Origin: Anatilimnocola floriformis
GTDB taxonomy: Bacteria > Planctomycetota > Planctomycetia > Pirellulales > Pirellulaceae
Direction of reading: 5' to 3'
Length of the DNA stretch: 64,000 nt
Assembly: GCF_024256385.1 (NCBI RefSeq)
Contig: NZ_JAMLFW010000001.1
Location: forward strand, 3,038,001-3,102,000
Numbering within the stretch: the stretch's first letter is position 1; each line of letters begins with the position of its first letter. The notes beneath the pieces were generated by a model. That model did no database searches, had not been told where the DNA came from, and was given only the letters and a program-made list of their open reading frames with translations. Shown here in pieces: positions 7,190-39,892 of the stretch. The position numbers and the translations under genes are program-made.

Positions 7190-10189
7190 CTATTCGGCCT
7201 TGGCCTTTTCGCGCGGCTGATAGGCGCTGCTGTCGACCAGCATGTAGCCGCCCCAGAAAAACGGATGCTCGGGCTTGAATTCATCGAGCGTCGCTGGAGC
7301 GCGCAGACGAACTTCTTCCCGCGGATCGAGCGAAGTTCCGCGGAGCAGCGTAATGCTGCGGCGCTGCGCAGCCGAAGGCTGCAGGTGCGGCAACTCCTGG
7401 GCATATTCGCGCACAAAGTCGCCGGTCGTTCGGCCACCTACGCGCCAACGCGACAGTAATATCGAGCGCCCGCCCGAAGCCATCAGGCCGCAAATCGACA
7501 TGAACATTTCCTCGCCAGTGCCGCCCTTCTTCAGGCCATACTCCGTCGCCGTGTGAAACGTCGGCAGCACGAGCTGCTCGGGGCAACCCCACGGCAGCAT
7601 CATCCAATCGCTGAGCGAGCCACCGGGCTTTCCCTTGTCGAGCTGCAACGGCGACCAGCCGAAGGGAAGCTTATCGCCGTCTTCCATGTCGGTCAGCATC
7701 ACCAGCCGATCGAATTGCGTGCCGAGCAATCCGCCCGGCGCGGGCATCGTTTCCTGCAGTACTGTGGAGCCGGGGAGCGCGCCGGCTAGCTGATCGGCAA
7801 CTCCCTTGGCGAGGCCTTCGTCATCGCGGGGTAGCATTTTTCCGGCGATGATCGCCGTCCGTGACAGTGGCTTGGCGGGGCGTTTGTCGCCACCGACCAG
7901 CGACATCGTCGGCGCATAGCGAATGTTCAATTGCGTGATGAGCGGGGCACCATCGGCACTGCCTGGCATCGGCAACGCTTCGAAGGGGACATACCACAAG
8001 AAGCTGTCGGGAACGATGATCAGCTCTTTGTACTTGGCCCAGTCTTCGGGCCGCGCATTGTTGCTGAGCTTCTTCAGAATCGACGCAGCGGGCGTTTTCC
8101 AAGCTTCCGACTGCAGGTCTTCGATCGACACCGGCTGGTTACGGTCATGCAAGCCGAGCTTTTTGAGCATGTCGACCAGTTCCACTCGCAGCTTGGGTGC
8201 ATCGAGCGTGAAGTACACATACTGCGAACTTGTGAAAGCAAAGGCGTGCAGATTGCGCGACGTTTGAAAAAACGCCAGCACCAGACTCCCTTCTTTGATG
8301 CCGCTTTGCATTTCCTTCACCGTCCGCAGCGGCGGAAAGGGCTGATCGGCGGCGACTCGCGCGAGCGCAATTTGGTTCAGCAACGCTTCTTGCCCACTGC
8401 TAGTGGTCCCCAGCTTTTGATAGAGCTCGGCGACTTGTTTTTTTCCCGCATCATCCGGAGGCACCAACGGCAGTTGTTCCAATGCCGCCCGCGCCGCTGC
8501 CGCCTGCGTGTTCAAGTCGGCGTAAGGGCCGAAGCGGTTCAGCAAGTCCTGCTTTTGCAGCACGGCTGCGTCATCGAGTAGTTCTTTGGGCGCTTGCAAC
8601 ACCCACCGCAGCGCGAGTAACCGGCCACCGAGGGGCAACGTGGCGTGAAACCGATGCCGACGAATACGATCGGCAATTTCCAACGCTTTTTCGGGCTCTT
8701 TGCGGGCGAGCGCCAATTCGAACCAATGCTCCATCGGCAGTGGATGGGGCACCGATTGGATCGCCATGACTTCGAGCGGATCGAGCTTCCAATCGCGCGG
8801 TCGCGGTTCGCGCAGCACCGTGGCATACAACGCATCGGCTAGGCGCTCGGTCACGTTGCCATTGAGAAACATGTTGTCGGCCAGAGCGATTTGAAACAAA
8901 CCGTGCGAGGCCTTCTTCTGATAATTGAGGGCTGCGATCAACGATTCGCCGCCGCCCCGCCCGTTCCCTTGAGCAAGAGCAATCCGAGCGGCTTGGTAGT
9001 TCACCCGGCTGCCGAGCGTGCCGTTCGCCGCTTCAGCCCGGCCGAGCGCGCTTTTGGCCAAGCCCAGCGTGTTCGCAGCGCCGCTGAGATCGCCCGTGGC
9101 GGCCAGATTTTCGGCGAGCCCGGTGAAGAGCGTGACCTGCATCGTGCGCAGGCGTTTTTGTTTTGCCCACGCTGCGGCAGGAACGGCTGGCGCGAAAACT
9201 CCTTGTTGACCAGAGATCAAAAACGTCTGCTGGGCGCCGCGGAAAGCTTCCTCCATGAAGTCGAAGCGATCGAACCAGGCCGCGGAATATGTCGCCTCGA
9301 GGAACGAGGCATACGCGACGTCGTACTTCTCCGCATCAAAGGCAATCTTGCCGAGCTCAATCAGGGCCAGGGCAGAGAGGGGATGATCGTACACACCGCC
9401 GGCCAGCAATCCGCGCTGCAGTGCCGGAATCGCTTGCATCGGCTTATTGGCCGCGTTGAGCGCGAGTCCATATTGAATTTCAACAAAGCACTGCGACCAG
9501 TGATTCGGCGCAGCGGGCAAGCGCGAGAGTTCTGTGACCAGTTGCGAAGTGAGCGGATCGAGCTCGCAAGTCGGTCCCATGATTTCGCCACGACGGCGAA
9601 TGCTAAGCGCGATGCAACGGCAGATCTCAATCACATTCACCGGCCGCAACGACGGCGGCGCAACCACGCCGCCCTGCGAAGCCACGGCGGCGTTGTCGAG
9701 CCGGCCTTGCAGCACTTGATATCGTTCCTGGAACTTGCCGATCTTCATGCCGCGCGTCGAAGCAGCGCCCCAGGTGATGGTGACGCGCGGATTGTTTTCG
9801 GGATCGACACCCGGCGGAAACTCGGCTCGTAGCATCCAATCGCGATTGGCGAGAAACAACTTGCAAGCAATGTTATGTTGCTCGAGAGCGCCGGCGAGAT
9901 CACCCATTTGATACAGCGACTCGCCGACCATGGTGTGATAACAGCAGGAGTCGACCCACCGCCCGTCGACGCTGGCGAGTGCGCCACGACCCGATTCCCG
10001 AAAGGCTCGCACGCTCGACTGATAGTCGCCGTCGTAGTAGCCGCCGAACATCATGAAGAACGAATCGTTCGGAATCGTGCGCGTGCCCATCCCTTGGGCC
10101 AGCGTGGTCCGGCCGGCCAGCAGCGCCGCAGTGAACACGAGCGCGCAGGCCAGAATGCAACTCAACCGCCGATAGCTGCAGCATTTCAT
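7190..10189 (-). CDS. Exported TPR protein with a degenerate C-terminal CHAT-like domain
   Basis: About 999 residues from the ATG at 10189, chosen because it opens a clear signal peptide (MKCCSYRRLSCILACALVFT). The middle is all-helical and TPR-like, with phrases such as ALIELGKIAFDAEKYDVAYA. The last 350 residues resemble a CHAT (caspase-HetF-associated) fold: strand VLAFFQTSRNLHAFAFTS, the block KELIIVPDSFLWYVPFEALP and the end block ICGLMASGGRSILLSRWRV. At the positions where CHAT peptidases carry the catalytic His (normally an ATHG-like motif) and Cys (normally an SAC-like motif), this protein has VMLTDMEDGD and LVLPTFHT. It is therefore probably not a protease. It is transcribed alone, opposite to the two-component system. 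Confidence 0.75.
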   Translation of the reverse strand: MKCCSYRRLSCILACALVFTAALLAGRTTLAQGMGTRTIPNDSFFMMFGGYYDGDYQSSVRAFRESGRGALASVDGRWVDSCCYHTMVGESLYQMGDLAGALEQHNIACKLFLANRDWMLRAEFPPGVDPENNPRVTITWGAASTRGMKIGKFQERYQVLQGRLDNAAVASQGGVVAPPSLRPVNVIEICRCIALSIRRRGEIMGPTCELDPLTSQLVTELSRLPAAPNHWSQCFVEIQYGLALNAANKPMQAIPALQRGLLAGGVYDHPLSALALIELGKIAFDAEKYDVAYASFLEATYSAAWFDRFDFMEEAFRGAQQTFLISGQQGVFAPAVPAAAWAKQKRLRTMQVTLFTGLAENLAATGDLSGAANTLGLAKSALGRAEAANGTLGSRVNYQAARIALAQGNGRGGGESLIAALNYQKKASHGLFQIALADNMFLNGNVTERLADALYATVLREPRPRDWKLDPLEVMAIQSVPHPLPMEHWFELALARKEPEKALEIADRIRRHRFHATLPLGGRLLALRWVLQAPKELLDDAAVLQKQDLLNRFGPYADLNTQAAAARAALEQLPLVPPDDAGKKQVAELYQKLGTTSSGQEALLNQIALARVAADQPFPPLRTVKEMQSGIKEGSLVLAFFQTSRNLHAFAFTSSQYVYFTLDAPKLRVELVDMLKKLGLHDRNQPVSIEDLQSEAWKTPAASILKKLSNNARPEDWAKYKELIIVPDSFLWYVPFEALPMPGSADGAPLITQLNIRYAPTMSLVGGDKRPAKPLSRTAIIAGKMLPRDDEGLAKGVADQLAGALPGSTVLQETMPAPGGLLGTQFDRLVMLTDMEDGDKLPFGWSPLQLDKGKPGGSLSDWMMLPWGCPEQLVLPTFHTATEYGLKKGGTGEEMFMSICGLMASGGRSILLSRWRVGGRTTGDFVREYAQELPHLQPSAAQRRSITLLRGTSLDPREEVRLRAPATLDEFKPEHPFFWGGYMLVDSSAYQPREKAKAE

Positions 10190-31829: not shown

Positions 31830-31903
<74 letters not shown>

Positions 31904-32021
31904 CTAGTTCTAAGTCTTGCCGAACGCTCAAGTTAGCGTACCTGCCTATGTGACGGCAGCGCGGTCTCACGACTCGGATTCCTCCGTATTTTACGGACGA
32001 ATCCCCGAGAAGGAGATTCTT

Positions 32022-33287
32022 ATGCCGCGCAAACCCCACCAGGCCCCTCCCGCTTATTGCCTGCACAAAGCCTCAGGCAAGGCCGTCGTCCGGATCAACA
32101 AGCAGGACCATTACATCGGCCTCTACGGCACTCCGGAGAGCCACGCCGAGTACGAACGACTGATCGCCGAATTCCGTGTGGCTCAGGAGGAGCATCTGCA
32201 GCAGCGAGATGCGGAAGTTGCTGCCGCCGGCTTTACCCTGACGCTCTCCCAGGTCCTGAAAAGGTATCGGACGTTCGCGCAAGGCTATTACGTCAAAAAC
32301 GGCAAACCCACGAAGGAACTTGTGGAAATGCGGTACGCTTTGCGGCCGCTTCGCAAACTGTACGGCAACACGTTGGCTCGCGAGTTTGGGCCGTTGAAGT
32401 TGAAGGCAGTCCGCCAGCATCTGGTCGACGGAAAGGAACTCTGTCGTCGCGTGATCAACCACCGGATCATGCGGATTAAGCGGTTCTTCAAATGGGCGGT
32501 CAGCGAAGAATTGGTTCCCGCGTCCGTATCGCATGGTCTGGCGACCGTCTCCGGGCTCCGGCGTGGCAAAACGACGGCTCACGAGGCACCGCCCGTGAAG
32601 CCCGTTGCGGATGTGTGGGTCGATGCAATTCTGCCGTACCTGTCCCCACAGGTCGCTGCCATGGTTCAGCTTCAGCGGCTTACCGGTACTCGGCCCGGCG
32701 AAGTCGTGATCATTCGGGCCTGCGACATCGACATGTCCGGGGATGTTTGGATCTATCAACCTCAAGATCACAAAACAGAGTGGCGTGACCATTCACGCAC
32801 GATCCCGCTCGGCCCTAAGGCACAGCAGGTCATTCGCCCCTTCTTGTCGTTGTCCACTGAACAGTGTTTGTTCTCGCCGCGGGCGGCCGAGGAGTATCGG
32901 AATTCCGCGAAAGCGGAAAACCGCAACCCCAACCGCAAAACACCGATCTACCCGTGTGAACTCCGCGCACGCGAGCGGCGGCGCGCCGCTGCGAAACGCA
33001 GAAAATCAAAGCGGCCGAAACGTGATCACTACGACGTGGATTCCTACGGTCGGGCGATCAAATATGCGATCAAACGGGCCAATGTCGATCGAGCCAAGGC
33101 CAAACTTCCGCTCGTCCCCAATTGGTGTCCGCTGCAGCTGCGGCACTCGCGAGCCACAGAGGTCCGCAAGCAGTTCGGCATCGAAGGCGCCCAAGTAACC
33201 CTCGGGCATGTGCATGCCAACGTGACAGAGGTTTATGCCGAGCGTAACCTGGAGTTGGCGATTACGATCGCTCGAAAGACAGGCTAG
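32022..33287 (+). CDS. Tyrosine recombinase / integrase of the tRNA-Arg island
   Basis: 421 residues from the ATG at 32022, which has AAGGAG seven bases upstream; a longer frame starts only from TTG. The catalytic domain shows Arg I in LTGTRPGEVVIIRACDI, the block LQLRHSRATEVRKQFG (Arg II with a neighbouring His; the usual first His of HxxR is replaced by Leu), the GH motif in VTLGHVHANV and the nucleophile Tyr in TEVYAERN. A strongly basic insert (RRRAAAKRRKSKRPKRD) lies inside the catalytic domain. The gene starts 119 bases after tRNA-Arg, typical for an integrase that uses the tRNA as attB. Confidence 0.93.
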   Translation: MPRKPHQAPPAYCLHKASGKAVVRINKQDHYIGLYGTPESHAEYERLIAEFRVAQEEHLQQRDAEVAAAGFTLTLSQVLKRYRTFAQGYYVKNGKPTKELVEMRYALRPLRKLYGNTLAREFGPLKLKAVRQHLVDGKELCRRVINHRIMRIKRFFKWAVSEELVPASVSHGLATVSGLRRGKTTAHEAPPVKPVADVWVDAILPYLSPQVAAMVQLQRLTGTRPGEVVIIRACDIDMSGDVWIYQPQDHKTEWRDHSRTIPLGPKAQQVIRPFLSLSTEQCLFSPRAAEEYRNSAKAENRNPNRKTPIYPCELRARERRRAAAKRRKSKRPKRDHYDVDSYGRAIKYAIKRANVDRAKAKLPLVPNWCPLQLRHSRATEVRKQFGIEGAQVTLGHVHANVTEVYAERNLELAITIARKTG

Positions 33288-33403: not shown

Positions 33404-34624
33404 ATGTCGTCGTTCAATGATGTCGCCAGTCGCAACACTGAGTTTGACTTGAACGTCCCGCAACATGCGGCCTGGGTTTTTGGTCGCCTGATTCACAAGC
33501 TCGAACATTTCATGCAGGTTACTTGGCTGACTTGCAACCCGATCGCCAGTGAAACAGTGAGCCACGTCTTTTCCGATCTTCGGCTCGCGAGTCGCGGACT
33601 CTATCCAGACGAAGTTTCGCGAATGCGACTCGTAAATCTGATTCGGGAAGTCGAAGAACTCTGGATTACAGAGATTGCTTCGGAGTGGCACGCCGACTTC
33701 TTGTTTGACGCTGAAACACGCTTGCGTAATGAGAATCAGAACTGCGGTGGATTTTCACGCCACTTTTTCGAAACTCTCTGCCAACAACTTCTTGCTGGTG
33801 TGTCCGATCTGCTGGCGATGCTGCGGAACACCGTCCTTGACTCCGTTTCTAACGAACTGATTGGATGCCTCAATTTCGCAGAGAGCGTCGACCAAGCCAT
33901 TCATCCGCTACCGGCGTATCGGTATTTGTCCTGCGCCGAACAGGTTGAAGTTGCTCAGCTAGGCTGGGAAGCACAACAGTCGGGTCGTGACACTATCCCG
34001 CGACAATTGCCACAGCTGCCAGTTAGGATCGAAGCGATCCCGCAACAATTTTGGAAAGAAGTCTCGCTGCGTTGGCGTCAGTTGGGCTTGCCAGCCGACT
34101 CTCTACCATCTGCCTGCCAGACCCTCGCGCCCGCCGCGACGGCTGAACTGATTGCCATGCGTTTCAGTGCGGTATATGCAGATGGCGATTCGCAACCCGC
34201 GGAGACACAAACTAGGGCGATTGAACCAAGCGATCGTCCAGAATCGGTTGACTTATCACTAGTAAGAACATCAACCAGCCAGACTGGCGCAGATTCTGAA
34301 ACTCGCCACCACCTAGGCCTGCGCCTGGAAGGTCGCTTACTTTACCGCCAAGGTTACATTGAGCCCGTAGTATTGCGAAGCCGACTCGGCCGTAAACTCA
34401 TGCAAGCATTCATCGACCGCGGGAAAAACTGCCTGGACTACTCAGAACTTTCAAGCCTTTGGGGTGGCTTCGGCGGAAACGCAGACATGCCGGAAGAAAG
34501 CTCGATTCGTTCCCAATTGTGTCGTCTGCGTAAACAAATCCGCCCGCTAGAGGTAATGATCGACGGCGCCCACGGTGGAAGCTGGGCTCTTGAGGACGAT
34601 ACCACTGTGGCACAGGCGTTGTAG
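33404..34624 (+). CDS. Island protein with a C-terminal winged-helix-like segment, unknown function
   Basis: 406 residues. The first 170 are helical and rich in Leu and Glu (LVNLIREVEELWITEIASEW). The last 90 (QAFIDRGKNCLDYSELSSLW, EESSIRSQLCRLRKQIRPLE, ending GGSWALEDD) look like an OmpR-type winged helix, whose usual end is a Gly-containing beta-hairpin. It may regulate the island. The start has AAGG 10 bases upstream. It lies directly behind the integrase and no family is recognised. Confidence 0.6.
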   Translation: MSSFNDVASRNTEFDLNVPQHAAWVFGRLIHKLEHFMQVTWLTCNPIASETVSHVFSDLRLASRGLYPDEVSRMRLVNLIREVEELWITEIASEWHADFLFDAETRLRNENQNCGGFSRHFFETLCQQLLAGVSDLLAMLRNTVLDSVSNELIGCLNFAESVDQAIHPLPAYRYLSCAEQVEVAQLGWEAQQSGRDTIPRQLPQLPVRIEAIPQQFWKEVSLRWRQLGLPADSLPSACQTLAPAATAELIAMRFSAVYADGDSQPAETQTRAIEPSDRPESVDLSLVRTSTSQTGADSETRHHLGLRLEGRLLYRQGYIEPVVLRSRLGRKLMQAFIDRGKNCLDYSELSSLWGGFGGNADMPEESSIRSQLCRLRKQIRPLEVMIDGAHGGSWALEDDTTVAQAL

Positions 34625-34729: not shown

Positions 34730-35032
34730 ATGCCCAGCGACTTGCTCAATGAAACTCTTGTCACGTTCGCCGAAGTTGCGAAGCGGATTCCGTCCCGCCG
34801 CAGGGGACGGCCAGTGCACATCTCGTCAATCCACCGCTATCGAAGCCCCGGAATTGATGACGTGAAACTTGAAGCCGTTCGCGTCGGGGGAACATGGATG
34901 ACGAGCTTGGAGGCCTTCTCGCGATTCTGCGCGGCGCTTACGGCTGCAAAGGGTGGCTCCGGCATTGGCGCGACTGGTGGATCGCGAGGCGACGATGGCG
35001 CTGATCGTGAGCTGGAGAGCAGCGGCTGGTAA
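34730..35032 (+). CDS. Small DUF1580-like protein (excisionase-like)
   Basis: 100 residues. The core LLNETLVTFAEVAKRIPSRR ... HISSIHRYRSPGI ... VGGTWMTSLEAFSRFCAAL reads like the planctomycete DUF1580 family. It resembles a winged-helix excisionase or MerR-like DNA-binding unit in which a strand (EAVRVGGTWMTS) precedes a second helix. The C-terminus is Gly/Asp-rich and disordered. Such small proteins often accompany integrases, so a recombination-direction factor is the best guess. GAGGATCT precedes the ATG. Confidence 0.65.
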   Translation: MPSDLLNETLVTFAEVAKRIPSRRRGRPVHISSIHRYRSPGIDDVKLEAVRVGGTWMTSLEAFSRFCAALTAAKGGSGIGATGGSRGDDGADRELESSGW

Positions 35033-35124: not shown

Positions 35125-36609
35125 ATGCGTCATCAATTGAATCACACGGTAGTTGAACTCAGCCGGCGCGGAAATGTCTTGAGCATCGACGCTGCCCGAC
35201 AGTTAGTGGAAGCGTGTTTAGAAACGGATCGTTTGCTCTACGATCCAGTCGAGCAGCGGGTCGTTTCCCAAACGGAATCACTCATCCCCAACACCGGCCT
35301 GAGGGCCAATGCTGGCCTGGAGATGATGATCCGCTATATCGGCTTGCAGCGCGGTTTTGAGATAAACTTTGAGAACCACGGTTGCTGTCGCGCATCGCTG
35401 CCTGTCTTATCCGCCAACTCATCGTCGTCATGTGCCGTCACCGATCCGGCAGTGCTCCAGTTCGTCTACCAAAATGAGCTTGGTCTCGTGCGTGCCGGTG
35501 CCCCCGTGGACCTCGTCCGACTTGCCGCGGAAATTCTACTCGCATACAGCCAAAAGAGCTTCGTCATTGTGGTCGCGACGCGAGCAGAAAGGCGTGAGTG
35601 GCGACGACGCCTGCGATCATTTGGAGTTTCCCTCCAAGAGCATGCGCTGGATTGCTTTGGGGAGTCGGTAAAGCGGGTCGTAGTAACCACACCGATTGGC
35701 GCCGCCGAAGATGACGTTTTCTTTCACTCTCGCCACCTCGCGATCCTGCCCGATGCGATCGCTTCCCTCGGCGAGCGATTCCAGACCATGCTCCTTTGCG
35801 CCGATCCCAAAGCCCGGCTGCTTGGGTTTCTGCGTGCGGACACGAAACCATCGCCTCGTGAGCAAGATCTGCTCCGGGCTCAATTCGGGTTTGCAGAACT
35901 TACCATCCCTGCGCACGGGCAAGTTTTAGTCGATCGTCGAATTGCTCGACTACCATTCGTAGTGCAACCGTTGCCTGATCGCTTGAAAGGCCATGAGCTT
36001 CAATGCTCGGGAGTTTGGCAGCATCCAGTTCGCAATCGCTGGATCGCGAAACTGGCGAAGGTGCTCTTCTACCAGGATTGGTGTGCGCTGGCGAATTGGC
36101 AGCCAGAGCTTGCCGAACAACTACACGATGAATCGCGGCGTGGTGTCATCGTCTTAGCGGAGTGCGTGCCGCAGGCTATCGCGATCGCGAAGCGGCTGAA
36201 GCGCGTGCCAATCGTGCTCGATCACGGGCTCGATCTCGGCTTCCTATCGCCGTCTGATCGCGCGAAGGTCGAACTTCGCCATATCGGATGGGATTGTGAC
36301 TGCATTGTGATCGCGACGCCGGGCGGCCTCGACCGGGTGTCGCTGCAGCACATTCCGACGATCATCTGGGCCGGTTCAGGGCCACATGTGCCACCTTTGC
36401 CGGCGGAGTACCTAATGATGCCGTACAACTCTCAACGGCGACTGACGATCGTTGATGTTGATGATCAGCATCATCCAGTCCTGCGGCTACGAAGCCAGCT
36501 TCGCCGGGCCGCCTACGCTAACGCAGGGTGGATCGCACCAGGTGTGGATTCCGAGTGCGCCAGAATTCGTCAGTTCCTCGCGAGGCGACCGATTGGAGGT
36601 TGTCGATGA
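35125..36609 (+). CDS. Degenerate superfamily-2 helicase-like protein without Walker A, partner of the reverse transcriptase
   Basis: 494 residues. The order of segments follows an SF2 helicase: a motif-Ia-like strand and helix (SFVIVVATRAERREWRRRL, 145-163), a motif-II-like strand LAILPDA (205-211, where DEAD/DExH is expected), a strand GVIVLAECVPQAIAIAKRL (340-358) and a motif-V-like segment CIVIATPGGLDRVSLQHIPT followed by IIWAG (393-417). No GKT/GKS loop is present near the expected place (GAPVDLVRLAAEILLAYSQ), so ATP hydrolysis is doubtful. Its stop overlaps the reverse transcriptase start as ATGA, so both are made together. The assignment is inference from motif order. Confidence 0.55.
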   Translation: MRHQLNHTVVELSRRGNVLSIDAARQLVEACLETDRLLYDPVEQRVVSQTESLIPNTGLRANAGLEMMIRYIGLQRGFEINFENHGCCRASLPVLSANSSSSCAVTDPAVLQFVYQNELGLVRAGAPVDLVRLAAEILLAYSQKSFVIVVATRAERREWRRRLRSFGVSLQEHALDCFGESVKRVVVTTPIGAAEDDVFFHSRHLAILPDAIASLGERFQTMLLCADPKARLLGFLRADTKPSPREQDLLRAQFGFAELTIPAHGQVLVDRRIARLPFVVQPLPDRLKGHELQCSGVWQHPVRNRWIAKLAKVLFYQDWCALANWQPELAEQLHDESRRGVIVLAECVPQAIAIAKRLKRVPIVLDHGLDLGFLSPSDRAKVELRHIGWDCDCIVIATPGGLDRVSLQHIPTIIWAGSGPHVPPLPAEYLMMPYNSQRRLTIVDVDDQHHPVLRLRSQLRRAAYANAGWIAPGVDSECARIRQFLARRPIGGCR

Positions 36610-37922
36610 GCGGATACGGTAGGTGGCCACATCGCCAATTTGCTGAGGGACGTCGGGAGCAAAGAACGCTACGCCCTTCGTCGATACCCACTGCGAGTCC
36701 CATAGGGCGGACTACCACAGAGCGGACCACGACCTTCGAGCAGGTAGTCGATCCTGAACACCTGCTGAAGATCCACTTCGACCTGAAGCGTTTTGGGGGC
36801 CCCGCTCCGGGCATCGACGGATTCAGTTACGAAGATTACTCGGTAACTGAAATTGCCGCCGTACTTCGGCTTGTTTGCAGCCGCATTCGCGTAGGCGACT
36901 ATCTTCCCTCGCCCAGCTTGATCGTCCCCTTTAAGAAAGATGGTGGAAAGACACGCGACCTGCGACTTCGCACAATCGTAGACCGCATCGTCTCGACTGC
37001 GGTGAACAAAATCGTAATGCAGGCGGCGGAGCGCATCCTCCGCCCGTGCTGCTTCGCATACAGGCCAGGATTGAGCACTTGGGATATGCTGGTTGCGATC
37101 GAGATCGCCGTTTTACACCGCCAGTGCTACTTCTTCCAGCAGGATGATATTCGCAAAGCGTTCGATAACGTACCGCTCGCGCTCGCCGTTAACTCGTGCC
37201 AAGAGCATGTACCAGACGCTCGACTGCGGCATCTCATCGAGGTAATCCTGCGCGGCCACGATACCAGCCGGACCGTCGGCATTGACCAGGGCGATCCTTT
37301 GAGCCCGGTCACACTCAATCTATCCATGCACTCTGTTCTGGACTTGCCGCTAATCACAGCCGTCCAGGACGGTTCTCCGCTGTACGTCCGTTACTCCGAC
37401 AACCTCGGCATAGCTGGACGCAGCGCGCTCGACGTGACCCGATGCTTTGAACTAGCCCGCCAGCGGTTGGGAGCGCACGGCATGACCTTAAAGGGAGAGG
37501 ACGGAGGCCTAACGTACCTACGGCGACCTGGATCGCAGGTCAGGGTATTGGGCACCGAGATCTCCCTGGAAGGAACCAGCCTGCGATACCGACCAGCAGA
37601 CCCGAAGGGCCTGCGGAAGGGACTAGACGAGGCCTGGCAGACTCCAAACCCAAGAACAACCGCACGTGAGGTTATGCGGGGCTGGGTAACGAGCCAAGGA
37701 ATGTGCGTCGAGAGTGTCGGAGCTGAGGGGATGGTACGGATGGTGAGGAGAGCAGCCTGCGAAGCGGGATTGCTAGAACTACCCTCCCTACCGGAGATGT
37801 CCGGATGGGCTATTAACGCCCAAGCCCGATGGAATGGCTTCCGTAGCCGCAAGTTGAGTAATCAGCTGCAGTTAGAGGCTGCGTCAGCACCATCGAGCGA
37901 TCTTGATCATCTCTCTAGGTAA
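36606..37922 (+). CDS. Stand-alone reverse transcriptase with a YSDN catalytic motif
   Basis: 438 residues from the ATG at 36606, which overlaps the preceding stop as ATGA. Reverse transcriptase motifs in order: PAPGIDGFSYED (67-78), VPFKKDGGKTRDLRLRTIVD (107-126), FAYRPGLSTWDMLVAIEIA (150-168), motif A QQDDIRKAFDN (178-188, catalytic Asp181), motif B DQGDPLSP (227-234) and motif C VRYSDN (261-266). Motif C has Asn in place of the second Asp of YxDD. A helical C-terminus of about 110 residues follows, with no maturase X or HNH domain, so it is not a typical group II intron protein. Motif B has SP, not SQ, which argues against a diversity-generating element. It is closest in layout to retron, Abi or DRT-type enzymes. 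Confidence 0.87.
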   Translation: MSGYGRWPHRQFAEGRREQRTLRPSSIPTASPIGRTTTERTTTFEQVVDPEHLLKIHFDLKRFGGPAPGIDGFSYEDYSVTEIAAVLRLVCSRIRVGDYLPSPSLIVPFKKDGGKTRDLRLRTIVDRIVSTAVNKIVMQAAERILRPCCFAYRPGLSTWDMLVAIEIAVLHRQCYFFQQDDIRKAFDNVPLALAVNSCQEHVPDARLRHLIEVILRGHDTSRTVGIDQGDPLSPVTLNLSMHSVLDLPLITAVQDGSPLYVRYSDNLGIAGRSALDVTRCFELARQRLGAHGMTLKGEDGGLTYLRRPGSQVRVLGTEISLEGTSLRYRPADPKGLRKGLDEAWQTPNPRTTAREVMRGWVTSQGMCVESVGAEGMVRMVRRAACEAGLLELPSLPEMSGWAINAQARWNGFRSRKLSNQLQLEAASAPSSDLDHLSR

Positions 37923-38548
37923 TTGGGGGTGTAGTTGTGGGGCCTTCAGCTTACCCCGTGCTCCGCACGCGGCCGTTTGTCGCCGGCATCGCGCGTAAGT
38001 GCTGCTGGTGAACAGGGTGGCGGTGCCGGTGAATCGCCGGTACCGCCAACCTTCTTCTTTTGGGCTACTGCCAACTCTCACAGCGACTTCGCCGGCTCGA
38101 CCTTTTCGTGAGCACCGACGGATGTCGTGCTTGCCGAATTTCCGTAGCGTCTTGATTCTGGGCCAGTTGCTGCGGAGCACCTTCGCGCACTCCGGGTCCG
38201 TACCTTCGGTCCACTTTGTAGCCCGACCGAGTCAATCTACGGCGGGCTCGCCGAGATGTATCGTCGAAGTCGAGCCGGACTTGGTTGTTTGGAAGCGAGC
38301 GTTCCTGGAATACAAAGTCAGTCAGTCGATGACACACCAGGCGGCGGGGCACAGATCCGCGAAATCCATGCAGCCGCGCACATCCTACACCGCAGTTGCA
38401 TTCGCACAACCACACAGCTATCGTGCGGATGGTGGCTTGATCGCACCTTTTTTCGCATTTGGAGAGACCTGTTCCGCCGCATCCGCGGCATGACTACTGA
38501 ATTGGCGCGCGAGCGTCAAGTTATTGCTTCCCACGAAACGACCAACCT
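37923..38548. other. Non-coding stretch behind the reverse transcriptase
   Basis: About 630 bases with no convincing gene on either strand. A strong hairpin lies at 38019-38047 (GGCGGTGCCGG, seven-base loop, CCGGTACCGCC; eleven pairs including one G-T) and a small one at 38476-38489 (GCCGC, ATCC, GCGGC). It leads into the structured locus at 38549 and may be its 5' part or the 3' untranslated region of the reverse transcriptase mRNA. Confidence 0.45.
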
Positions 38549-38642
38549 GGGCCGAGAGGCCCTTGCAGAAGAAGCAGTGCTTGGACCGCGCCCCCGCAAG
38601 GGGGCGTCGGCCATGCGCTGTTCTTCTGCCCCTTGGTCGGGG
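38549..38642 (+). ncRNA. Candidate structured RNA: two GNRA-capped hairpins, one with about 28 base pairs
   Basis: Hairpin 1 (38549-38562) is GGGCC, GAGA, GGCCC. Two bases later, hairpin 2 (38565-38629) pairs 38565-38580 with 38615-38629 over fifteen base pairs and one bulged G. It then continues as UGG/CCA, CCG/CGG and a perfect seven-pair top (CGCCCCC, GCAA, GGGGGCG). About 28 of 65 positions on each side are matched, with three single bulges and one mismatch. A small CCCC/GGGG hairpin ends at 38642 and a terminator follows six bases later. The long, almost unbroken stem resembles a retron msd hairpin. The 5' end of the transcript is not defined. Confidence 0.6.
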
Positions 38643-38647
38643 TCGTG

Positions 38648-38680
38648 GGAGCGGCCGTGGTTCGGCGCTCCTGTTTTTTT
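38648..38680 (+). terminator. Rho-independent terminator closing the structured RNA locus
   Basis: GGAGCGGCCG (38648-38657), loop TGGTT, CGGCGCTCC (38663-38671), then TG and seven Ts (38674-38680). The stem has nine pairs with one bulged G. It separates the reverse transcriptase/RNA unit from the transporter operon starting at 38750. Confidence 0.85.
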
Positions 38681-38749
38681 GCGCTGACACCAGGGCGTTC
38701 CCGCTCCATTGCCGCATACCGCGCGGCATCGTTCACAAGGGATCCTGCC

Positions 38750-39892
38750 ATGGAAAATGAAGCAAAGCGTCTTGCGGAATCTGCCTCCTTGCGAAATCCG
38801 ATACTTGTCGGCGCGCTCTTTCTGGTGAGCTTCTTGTTGCTGGTGCTCATCGCGCTTGTTGTTGCGAATGGCCTAGGCAGCAACACCAAAGGTTCGGGGG
38901 CCGTCGTAACTGCGCAGCCTCCACCCCCGATTCAGAACCCTGATCGAATCAAGGGCGTGTTACGCGAAGGAAAGACCTACGAACTGGTGCTCAAGGCAGG
39001 CATCTCTGCTCGGGTGGAGGACAAGGCGTACACGATTAAAACCGTGACGAACATGGTCTACCGTGGCGAGTGCGTGATGCAGCGGCGAATCGAGAAGAAC
39101 GACGGTGCGGAGCTCATTGAGCTGCGCAAATTCATCGTTTGTCGCACAGTGAAACTGGAGTCGCACGTCGAGGATCTACGTTTCGATTGGGGCACTCCAG
39201 GAGATCTAGCACTAGCGAGCCTCGACTTCTATGAGCCTGGGCTCACTGCAGCCGTGAGCGAAGGGAAGGCGTTTGTACAAGCTCTATTCAAAAACTTGGT
39301 GGCCCAGCCAGCGGCCAGCGATCGTATTCAAGCCTGGCGCAAGCTCGATAGCTTGGAAGGCAAGACAATACGAATCACGTATCGAGACGGCGTCGGGGTT
39401 ACTCGCTTGGAGCCGGTCGGATGCACACTGACTACGGATGAAGAGAGTTTTCTAAATCACACCTCCGCATTCGCGGACTATTGGCTTCTCCCCGACTTAA
39501 GTATGGGGAACGGAAAGGAGTGGGACGTCGATGCTGCCCATCTCGCCTCGCTAATCGACCCTTCCTTGCGAGGCGTCCCAAGCGGCCAAATTGTCCTAAA
39601 GCGCGTTGAGGCAGCCAATCAGTTTCGTTCGGATCCGGCGCACGCAGTGCTGCAGATCACCGGCGAGAAAATGATCACCTTGGATCAATCAGACGATAAA
39701 ACGCAGCGAATCGGCACGTTCGTCCCACAAGGTAGCTTCTGGTTCAACACGCGAGATGAGTTTCTCGAACAAGCCCAGCTGACCGGGCACTTGGCTTTGG
39801 AACAGGTTTCCAAAAATCATCTTCTCTTTGAAACTTCGATGCGGACGAAGCCCGCGCTCGATGTGCAATACTCCTGCAAGACAATCAAGTGA
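38750..39892 (+). CDS. Single-pass membrane protein coupled to an FHA-ABC transporter, unknown function
   Basis: 380 residues from the ATG at 38750, which has AAGGGAT upstream. One membrane helix near residues 22-42 (LVGALFLVSFLLLVLIALVV) is followed by a long extracytoplasmic part with a beta-rich start (VLREGKTYELVLKAGISARV) and no recognised domain. The stop overlaps the GTG of the ABC transporter (GTGA). It is probably an accessory or substrate-binding component of that transporter. Confidence 0.7.
   Translation: MENEAKRLAESASLRNPILVGALFLVSFLLLVLIALVVANGLGSNTKGSGAVVTAQPPPPIQNPDRIKGVLREGKTYELVLKAGISARVEDKAYTIKTVTNMVYRGECVMQRRIEKNDGAELIELRKFIVCRTVKLESHVEDLRFDWGTPGDLALASLDFYEPGLTAAVSEGKAFVQALFKNLVAQPAASDRIQAWRKLDSLEGKTIRITYRDGVGVTRLEPVGCTLTTDEESFLNHTSAFADYWLLPDLSMGNGKEWDVDAAHLASLIDPSLRGVPSGQIVLKRVEAANQFRSDPAHAVLQITGEKMITLDQSDDKTQRIGTFVPQGSFWFNTRDEFLEQAQLTGHLALEQVSKNHLLFETSMRTKPALDVQYSCKTIK

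Follow-up and report, generated by a model that had tools for sequence, protein, structure and literature searches.

The question raised by the stretch of Anatilimnocola floriformis DNA shown above (the window, comprising all 64,000 nucleotides analysed, positions 3,038,001 to 3,102,000 of contig NZ_JAMLFW010000001.1) is whether a reverse transcriptase (RT) gene, a helicase-like gene (HEL) and a structured RNA situated beside one another constitute a single RT system. A first-pass annotation of the sequence had joined these three parts into one unit carried by an island at a transfer RNA gene for arginine (tRNA-Arg). A unit of helicase-like protein, RT and structured RNA was indeed found to be conserved, but the RNA that had been picked is probably not the partner. 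Overlooked by that annotation were the YSDN motif of the RT and a second structured RNA immediately following the RT gene, which is the candidate examined below. The features concerned are the following:

35125..36609, + strand: helicase-like partner HEL, 494 amino acids, predicted degenerate superfamily 2 (SF2)-like protein (family profile against UvsW, RadD and Vasa; no Walker A)
36606..37922, + strand: reverse transcriptase, 438 amino acids, motif C YSDN (RVT_1, expectation value (E) 2.2e-15; alignments; tree)
37926..38051, + strand: candidate RT-linked structured RNA (folding, hairpin 1 (HP1) motif and covariation; limits derived from folds, not from transcripts)
38490..38690, + strand: conserved structured RNA with a terminator, probably separate (12 of 60 genomes; compensatory changes)

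Conservation of the HEL-RT pair was scored at 68 loci (L numbers), consisting of the fetched neighbourhoods of partner matches and of high-scoring RTs; the loci were thus picked because HEL or RT had matched, with an RT being counted as present above 200 bits. The finding of RT homologues devoid both of the helicase-like gene and of any conserved RNA had been named beforehand as an argument against a common unit; RT homologues proved to adjoin the helicase-like gene almost without exception. Both genes were present at 54 of the 68 loci, on the same strand at 52 and on opposite strands at L156 and L175, with the gene order being HEL followed by RT. An RT without HEL was identified at six loci, two of which are low-scoring outgroups (L193, L194), and HEL without RT at eight, among them L035 with an RT remnant and some at contig ends. 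As the first-pass annotation had described, the two open reading frames (ORFs) of the window (35125-36609 and 36606-37922) overlap by ATGA. Of the 27 loci where HEL and RT are no more than 150 bases apart, 19 have a four-base in-frame overlap (18 ATGA, one GTGA). Both proteins lie in a single stop-free frame at six loci (L038, L061, L147, L166, L177, L185).

Using the window protein as query, the partner was identified in 5 of 98 relatives; among 392 genomes of the phylum a 6-row profile detected it in nine, and among 397 of the class a 14-row profile detected it in 47. The genome of A. floriformis itself contains a second copy with a truncated RT (L034) and a decayed third copy (L035), the two longer copies sharing 56-57% protein identity. 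The pair was also present in genomes G064, G080 and other relatives, with three to four copies in some (G000, G064, G646), while G021 and G010 possess the partner or a fragment of it without an RT. Beyond Planctomycetota, a scan of genome contigs with a single RT returned one record, itself planctomycete. HEL had no relative in plasmids, phages or viral contigs and the RT alignment none in viral contigs, with the 15 plasmid RT matches listed being mostly annotated group II RTs. The HEL-RT pair is a real, conserved unit in Planctomycetota, its restriction to that phylum partly reflecting the reach of the searches.

The relationship of the RT to other RTs was investigated with a tree (IQ-TREE) of 86 sequences, in which 26 planctomycete RTs served as references; ten of these were checked as group II RTs, nine of the ten scoring over the maturase cut-off, and labelled DRT (defence-associated RT), retron or UG references were not part of the tree. 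Left out were L202 and five retron-like sequences, which were too short, L208 as a sixth retron-like sequence, and three supposed references that were members of the clade. A bipartition with 100/100 support separates 58 clade RTs and L193 (59 of the 60 non-reference sequences) from the 26 references and the outgroup L194. The window RT accordingly lies outside the planctomycete group II clade, a position inside which had been put forward as the other argument against a distinct system. The 36 sequences with [YF]xDN at motif C form an exact bipartition of their own (98.4/100), the remaining clade RTs being YxDD. The motif A aspartate and the first aspartate of motif C are retained, as is the motif D lysine in most RTs. 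A Pfam RNase H domain was identified C-terminal to five YxDD RTs (L161, L169, L170, L171, L173; E 1e-6 to 3e-36), an RNase H-like tail was seen in L062, L063 and L144 (the Pfam match of L062 being sub-threshold), and NCBIfam RNase H was matched in 2 of 15 members. Judged from these alignments and the tree, the RTs constitute a clade of their own, distinct from the group II RTs of planctomycetes and so far known from Planctomycetota alone. The YxDN members may be active polymerases.

The partner protein was described in the first-pass annotation as SF2-like without a Walker A motif; the absence of Walker A was borne out, and the likeness to SF2 proteins is weak. When HEL was searched as a single sequence, with E up to 1 allowed, no entry of Pfam, PADLOC, NCBIfam or PDB was matched. 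A profile of 42 HEL sequences gave 12 weak PDB matches up to E 10, headed by SF2 helicases (UvsW 6e-4, RadD 1.9e-3, Vasa 2.2e-3, DbpA 0.13), and weak, scattered matches in Pfam. As regards the two RecA-like domains of an SF2 helicase, the best profile matches are SF2 chains, all at weak scores. The likeness to UvsW and RadD lies in these profile matches, while the difference is that GK[ST] is absent from the aligned motif I region in 49 of the 49 homologues covering it (of 56), where the segment reads for example GLVRAGAPVDLVRLAAEIL. HEL is thus weakly predicted to be a degenerate SF2-like protein that has lost its Walker A.

Directly 3' of the RT of the window, folding suggested a 5' hairpin (37926-37957), HP1 with the tip GCTCCGC (37957-37969), HP2 (37978-38012) and a long HP3 (38015-38051). 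The segment 37923-38070 had a folding z-score of -3.47, with 0 of 200 shuffles as low. Across YxDN loci, 180-nt windows 3' of the RT domain had a mean z of -2.59 (n=33), compared to -0.70 for 94 control 3' flanks of YxDN loci and -0.28 for 54 of YxDD loci (pooled controls against YxDN windows, Mann-Whitney p 1.8e-10); upstream of HEL no excess folding was seen (mean z 0.09, 30 YxDN loci). The HP1 tip GCUYCGC or a close variant was found near the RT at 38 of 58 loci (19 of 36 YxDN, 19 of 22 YxDD), whereas 1000 random placements averaged 8.4 loci and never exceeded 18; with 13 close relatives dropped, 29 of 45 loci had the motif against 6.8 expected.

When 33 sequences, 31 of them distinct, were aligned by their tips, a stem carrying a one-base bulge accommodated them with 78.5% of cells paired, and an unbulged version fits this set worse. 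The stem contained 72 doubly changed cells against 28.7 +/- 4.8 in shuffled sets, with a covariation of 0.497 against 0.162 shuffled and at most 0.180 for slid versions. The constant tip is a result of how the sequences were selected; the covarying stem is not. At the YxDD loci L041, L062, L063, L144, L158, L162, L180, L182, L183 and L184 the HP1 hairpin lies between HEL and RT, and at other YxDD loci it lies past the RT domain, often within the RT frame (L161, L169-L171, L179). This RNA, starting a few bases past the RT stop codon in the window, fits the part of RT partner and is regarded as a candidate on the basis of predicted folds and covariation. Separately, two loci of one genome (L037 7419-8645 and L039 9156-10371) were found to share a block of 89% identity that takes in the greater part of the RT and the sequence right behind it, but not HEL, as if RT and RNA moved together.

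Several results weigh against assigning this RNA to the RT. The fold window, the HP1 motif and the regions searched were set after viewing the very loci that were scored, and an earlier, narrower motif was found at 18 of 33 YxDN loci but only 3 of 19 YxDD loci. Even with the final motif, 20 of 58 loci have no match, among them the paralogue L034 as well as L036, L040 and L061. The antisense of the motif is matched at 16 of the 58, so that base composition accounts for part of the motif counts. At YxDD loci the excess of folding was not significant, either downstream (-1.20, p 0.085) or in the HEL-RT gap (-1.45, p 0.077). The window's own HP1 pairs better without the bulge, and HP2 and HP3 are less well supported than HP1. 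The hairpin is situated inside the open RT frame at no fewer loci than L148, L151, L157, L161, L169-L172 and L179, that is, at these at least. Lastly, an HP1 covariance model gave 20 weak matches in 27 held-out loci (loci that were outgroups or had no 7-base tip where one was expected), of which one was placed beside an RT (L175) and the top match was not; in the window it ranked HP1 second of four (E 0.73), after a match within the RT gene.

The RNA chosen by the first-pass annotation, placed at about 38.49-38.69 kb, was confirmed as a structured RNA locus closed by a terminator-like end. Sequence and structure are conserved among 15 sequences, with compensatory change at 26 of 57 predicted pairs, and the RNA takes the form of a long rod-like fold of about 190 nt followed by the terminator. 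It had no Rfam match at gathering threshold, the best below it being Transposase-2 (E 0.16), and is possibly an undescribed planctomycete RNA. Its tie to the RT unit fared less well. The RNA was found in 12 of 60 relatives searched, with three copies in the A. floriformis genome; among these 12 relatives the pair was present in three (G000, G071, G080), fragments of it in G001 and G010, and neither pair nor fragment was seen in seven. A profile of the RNA matched 8 of the 68 pair loci (the window, L036, L037, L057, L058, L062, L144, L145), at a distance of 0.6-5.3 kb from the pair, on its 3' side at two and its 5' side at six, and on the same strand at four; no match was found in 36 other loci (129 kb). 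It thus lies close to the pair more often than chance would predict, being linked to it in location and not in arrangement. By BLAST, 11 of 20 pair-bearing genomes had a match, and the sole copy adjoins the pair in G408, G233, G166, G577 and G776. Since the RNA is present in genomes where no pair was seen and, where both are present, differs in distance, side and strand, it was not accepted as a component of the RT unit or as its functional partner. It is probably a separate RNA gene and probably a chromosomal landmark beside which islands integrate, although it may have a role in the element as a passenger.

The surroundings of the pair bear on how it is carried. Upstream of HEL, the window contains:

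31830..31904, + strand: tRNA-Arg (acg), probable integration site (ARAGORN; Rfam RF00005)
31917..33287, + strand: tyrosine recombinase (integrase; Pfam Phage_integrase, E 2.3e-9)
33404..34624, + strand: ORF of 406 amino acids without a family match in library scans and without a relative at the other 67 loci
34730..35032, + strand: small DUF1580 protein (Pfam DUF1580, E 1.5e-6), a possible helix-turn-helix regulator

Among the 68 loci, relatives of integrases were found at 11 (the window integrase and three other integrases serving as queries), DUF1580 relatives at 12 with the window counted, MerR-like genes at nine and ParB-like genes at 13. The recurrence of these genes suggests that the HEL-RT module is cargo of integrative, integrase-bearing elements. 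Carriage by a tRNA-Arg island, as first proposed, is plausible with the integrase lying beside the tRNA; a tRNA-Arg is also present at L037. Downstream of the tRNA-Arg neither a second copy of the tRNA end nor any other convincing repeat marking the island end was detected, so that the 3' boundary of the island was not located.

Other elements were observed near some of the loci. A pair consisting of a KVNVG-type ORF and a PD-(D/E)XK nuclease, each gene being present at 6 of 68 loci, recurs at L034 (12841-14244), L036 (8780-10248), L041 (3550-4811) and L058 (504-1849), with one of the two genes at L035, L040, L057 and L173; it perhaps marks a shared integration region. At L039 (13245-15270) Cas2-like and Cas4-Cas1-like ORFs, recognized by eye, and a repeat array lie near a HEL-RT copy. 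Past the RT region of L057 (about 8330) and L058 (about 10810), a conserved sequence resembling the 3' end of transfer-messenger RNA was seen by eye, where ARAGORN identified no gene; this is possibly an attachment site in ssrA. The palindrome ATTTCAAAAGTACTTTTGAAAT, a possible operator candidate, is situated directly 5' of HEL at L062 (about 9245-9266) and also at L063. Between HEL and RT, a frame of about 160 amino acids that overlaps the hairpin region was noted at L062 (7289-7765), L063 (7417-7920) and L144 (2906-3373), and may not be a real protein.

The explanation favoured here, and judged somewhat more probable than an even chance, is a three-part RT system in which an RT-non-coding RNA (ncRNA) complex includes the pseudo-helicase and probably acts as an island-borne defence. 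HEL and RT would be co-produced by translational coupling and would form a complex with the RNA, for which HP1, with its stem, its one-base bulge in most members and its GCUYCGC tip, may be the recognition hairpin. In the manner of retrons and class 2 DRTs, the RT would then copy part of the RNA into complementary DNA (cDNA), with the pseudo-helicase serving as a nucleic-acid-binding scaffold or sensor and not as a motor. Class 2 DRTs are described as copying an ncRNA in the portions available of PMC12632851 and PMC13174585, and it is by this analogy that synthesis of cDNA from the system's own RNA, together with defence, is thought most likely; the module would most likely protect the cell against phages. 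The conserved pairing, the shared frames, the clade, the change in motif C, RNase H in sister RTs and a structured RNA next to many of the RTs are observations, whereas complex formation, templated cDNA synthesis, the role of the pseudo-helicase and defence are inferred. A broader claim is put forward tentatively, at nearly even chances: that these RTs, with a YxDN or YxDD site and sometimes RNase H, a partner of SF2 type without an ATP site and a bulged-hairpin RNA, represent an undescribed bacterial class on Planctomycetota islands making a DNA product for defence.

A rival explanation takes the trio as mobility or maintenance machinery of an integrative element, with the RT producing a DNA encoded by the element or assisting its integrated copy, the RNA as template or primer, and no role in defence. 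The recurring integrase (11), DUF1580 (12), MerR (9) and ParB (13) genes, the genomes with three to four copies and the second structured RNA often found near the pair all suit it, as does RNase H in YxDD members, which is in keeping with full cDNA synthesis. It is nevertheless considered unlikely, as the two longer copies of the A. floriformis genome are too divergent to be recent retro-copies, and integrases and sites vary among loci, which is a better fit to cargo than to a core function. An improbable reading also is that the YxDN RT is catalytically dead and that two pseudo-enzymes bind RNA, acting by binding or regulation. The second catalytic aspartate is substituted in 36 sequences and the partner is without Walker A in all covered homologues; set against this are the retained aspartates of motifs A and C, the motif D lysine of most members, and the sister RTs that keep YxDD, some with RNase H. 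In addition, GDN is an active form of this motif in the polymerases of nonsegmented negative-strand RNA viruses, which counts against a dead enzyme.

It is doubtful that the hairpins past the RT gene are terminators or spacers of the ordinary kind, unconnected with the RT protein. T runs do follow some hairpins (L059, L061, L180, L182), the HP1 motif is absent at 20 of 58 loci and some hairpins overlap the RT frame, but HP1 combines a covarying stem with a constant tip among 31 distinct sequences, no T run directly follows it at the loci viewed, control 3' flanks fold less, and a terminator placed between HEL and RT, where HP1 lies at the YxDD loci named above, would cut off the RT. That the locus is a degenerate group II intron, of which the RT remains and the ribozyme has been lost, is very improbable. 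In profile comparisons the known RTs that come nearest are those of group II maturases, and the RT family profile matched the GsI-IIC RT in PDB at E 7.4e-54. A group II intron RT was nonetheless rejected both by score (NCBIfam, 108.5 bits against a cut-off of 300) and by position in the tree, the RTs forming a separate clade with a conserved partner gene. No group II ribozyme was found in the window at the Rfam gathering threshold, and a scan of 37800-38800 that admitted matches up to E 1 was likewise negative. Distant common ancestry with group II introns is likely.

Comparison with known systems places the favoured three-part system near several of them. Retrons unite an RT, a compact hairpin RNA and an accessory protein (PMC8867640). 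Their msr-msd RNA lies upstream of the RT, and branched msDNA is the product. The same three kinds of component are joined in one unit here, the difference being that the RNA lies 3' of the RT or between genes and not upstream. For the one retron subfamily model NF038233 the window RT scored 25.2 bits against a cut-off of 235, and the Retron St85 model had matches in 75 of 118 genomes, none of which was over its cut-off. With class 2 DRTs (DRT2, DRT9, DRT10, DRT3a) the likeness is an RT adjoining a short structured ncRNA, known here by comparative folding only, and in DRT3 systems the ncRNA gene follows that of DRT3b, according to the parts available of PMC13174585 and PMC12632851. Those same parts describe neither a pseudo-helicase partner nor a YxDN motif for class 2 DRTs, and the RNA architecture differs. 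In a PADLOC defence-model scan of four window ORFs, the RT scored 55 bits for Drt9 and 37 bits for UG27 against 110 for the general RT model, while other members of the clade match different models. The Drt2 model had no match in 118 genomes or in controls, and the Drt9 model matched in 41 of the 118, from which ten loci were fetched and the three checked were group II RTs.

Group II and group II-like (G2L) RTs are the closest by sequence, the clade being separate from the planctomycete group II RTs; for G2L RTs, no partner gene or ncRNA is mentioned in the sections available of PMC4244168 and PMC8934634. G2L5 is treated there as a small set of sequences, taken from Planctomyces maris and Blastopirellula marina, that was left unresolved, and it may include members of the present clade. 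The open-licence literature searched yielded no account of a YxDN RT together with a pseudo-helicase and this hairpin RNA.

Not seen together in the papers searched were the features combined here: a conserved YxDN site, RNase H in some sister RTs, a pseudo-helicase joined to the RT by translational coupling or fusion, and an RNA of variable position, which may follow the RT, separate HEL from RT or lie within the RT frame. RT-ncRNA systems have repeatedly proved to use DNA synthesis in unexpected ways, and the present locus makes it testable whether a YxDN RT polymerises, what it would copy, and what role a helicase-like protein without an ATP site would have in an RT complex. The system may also give an identity to RTs of planctomycetes that are at present unclassified.

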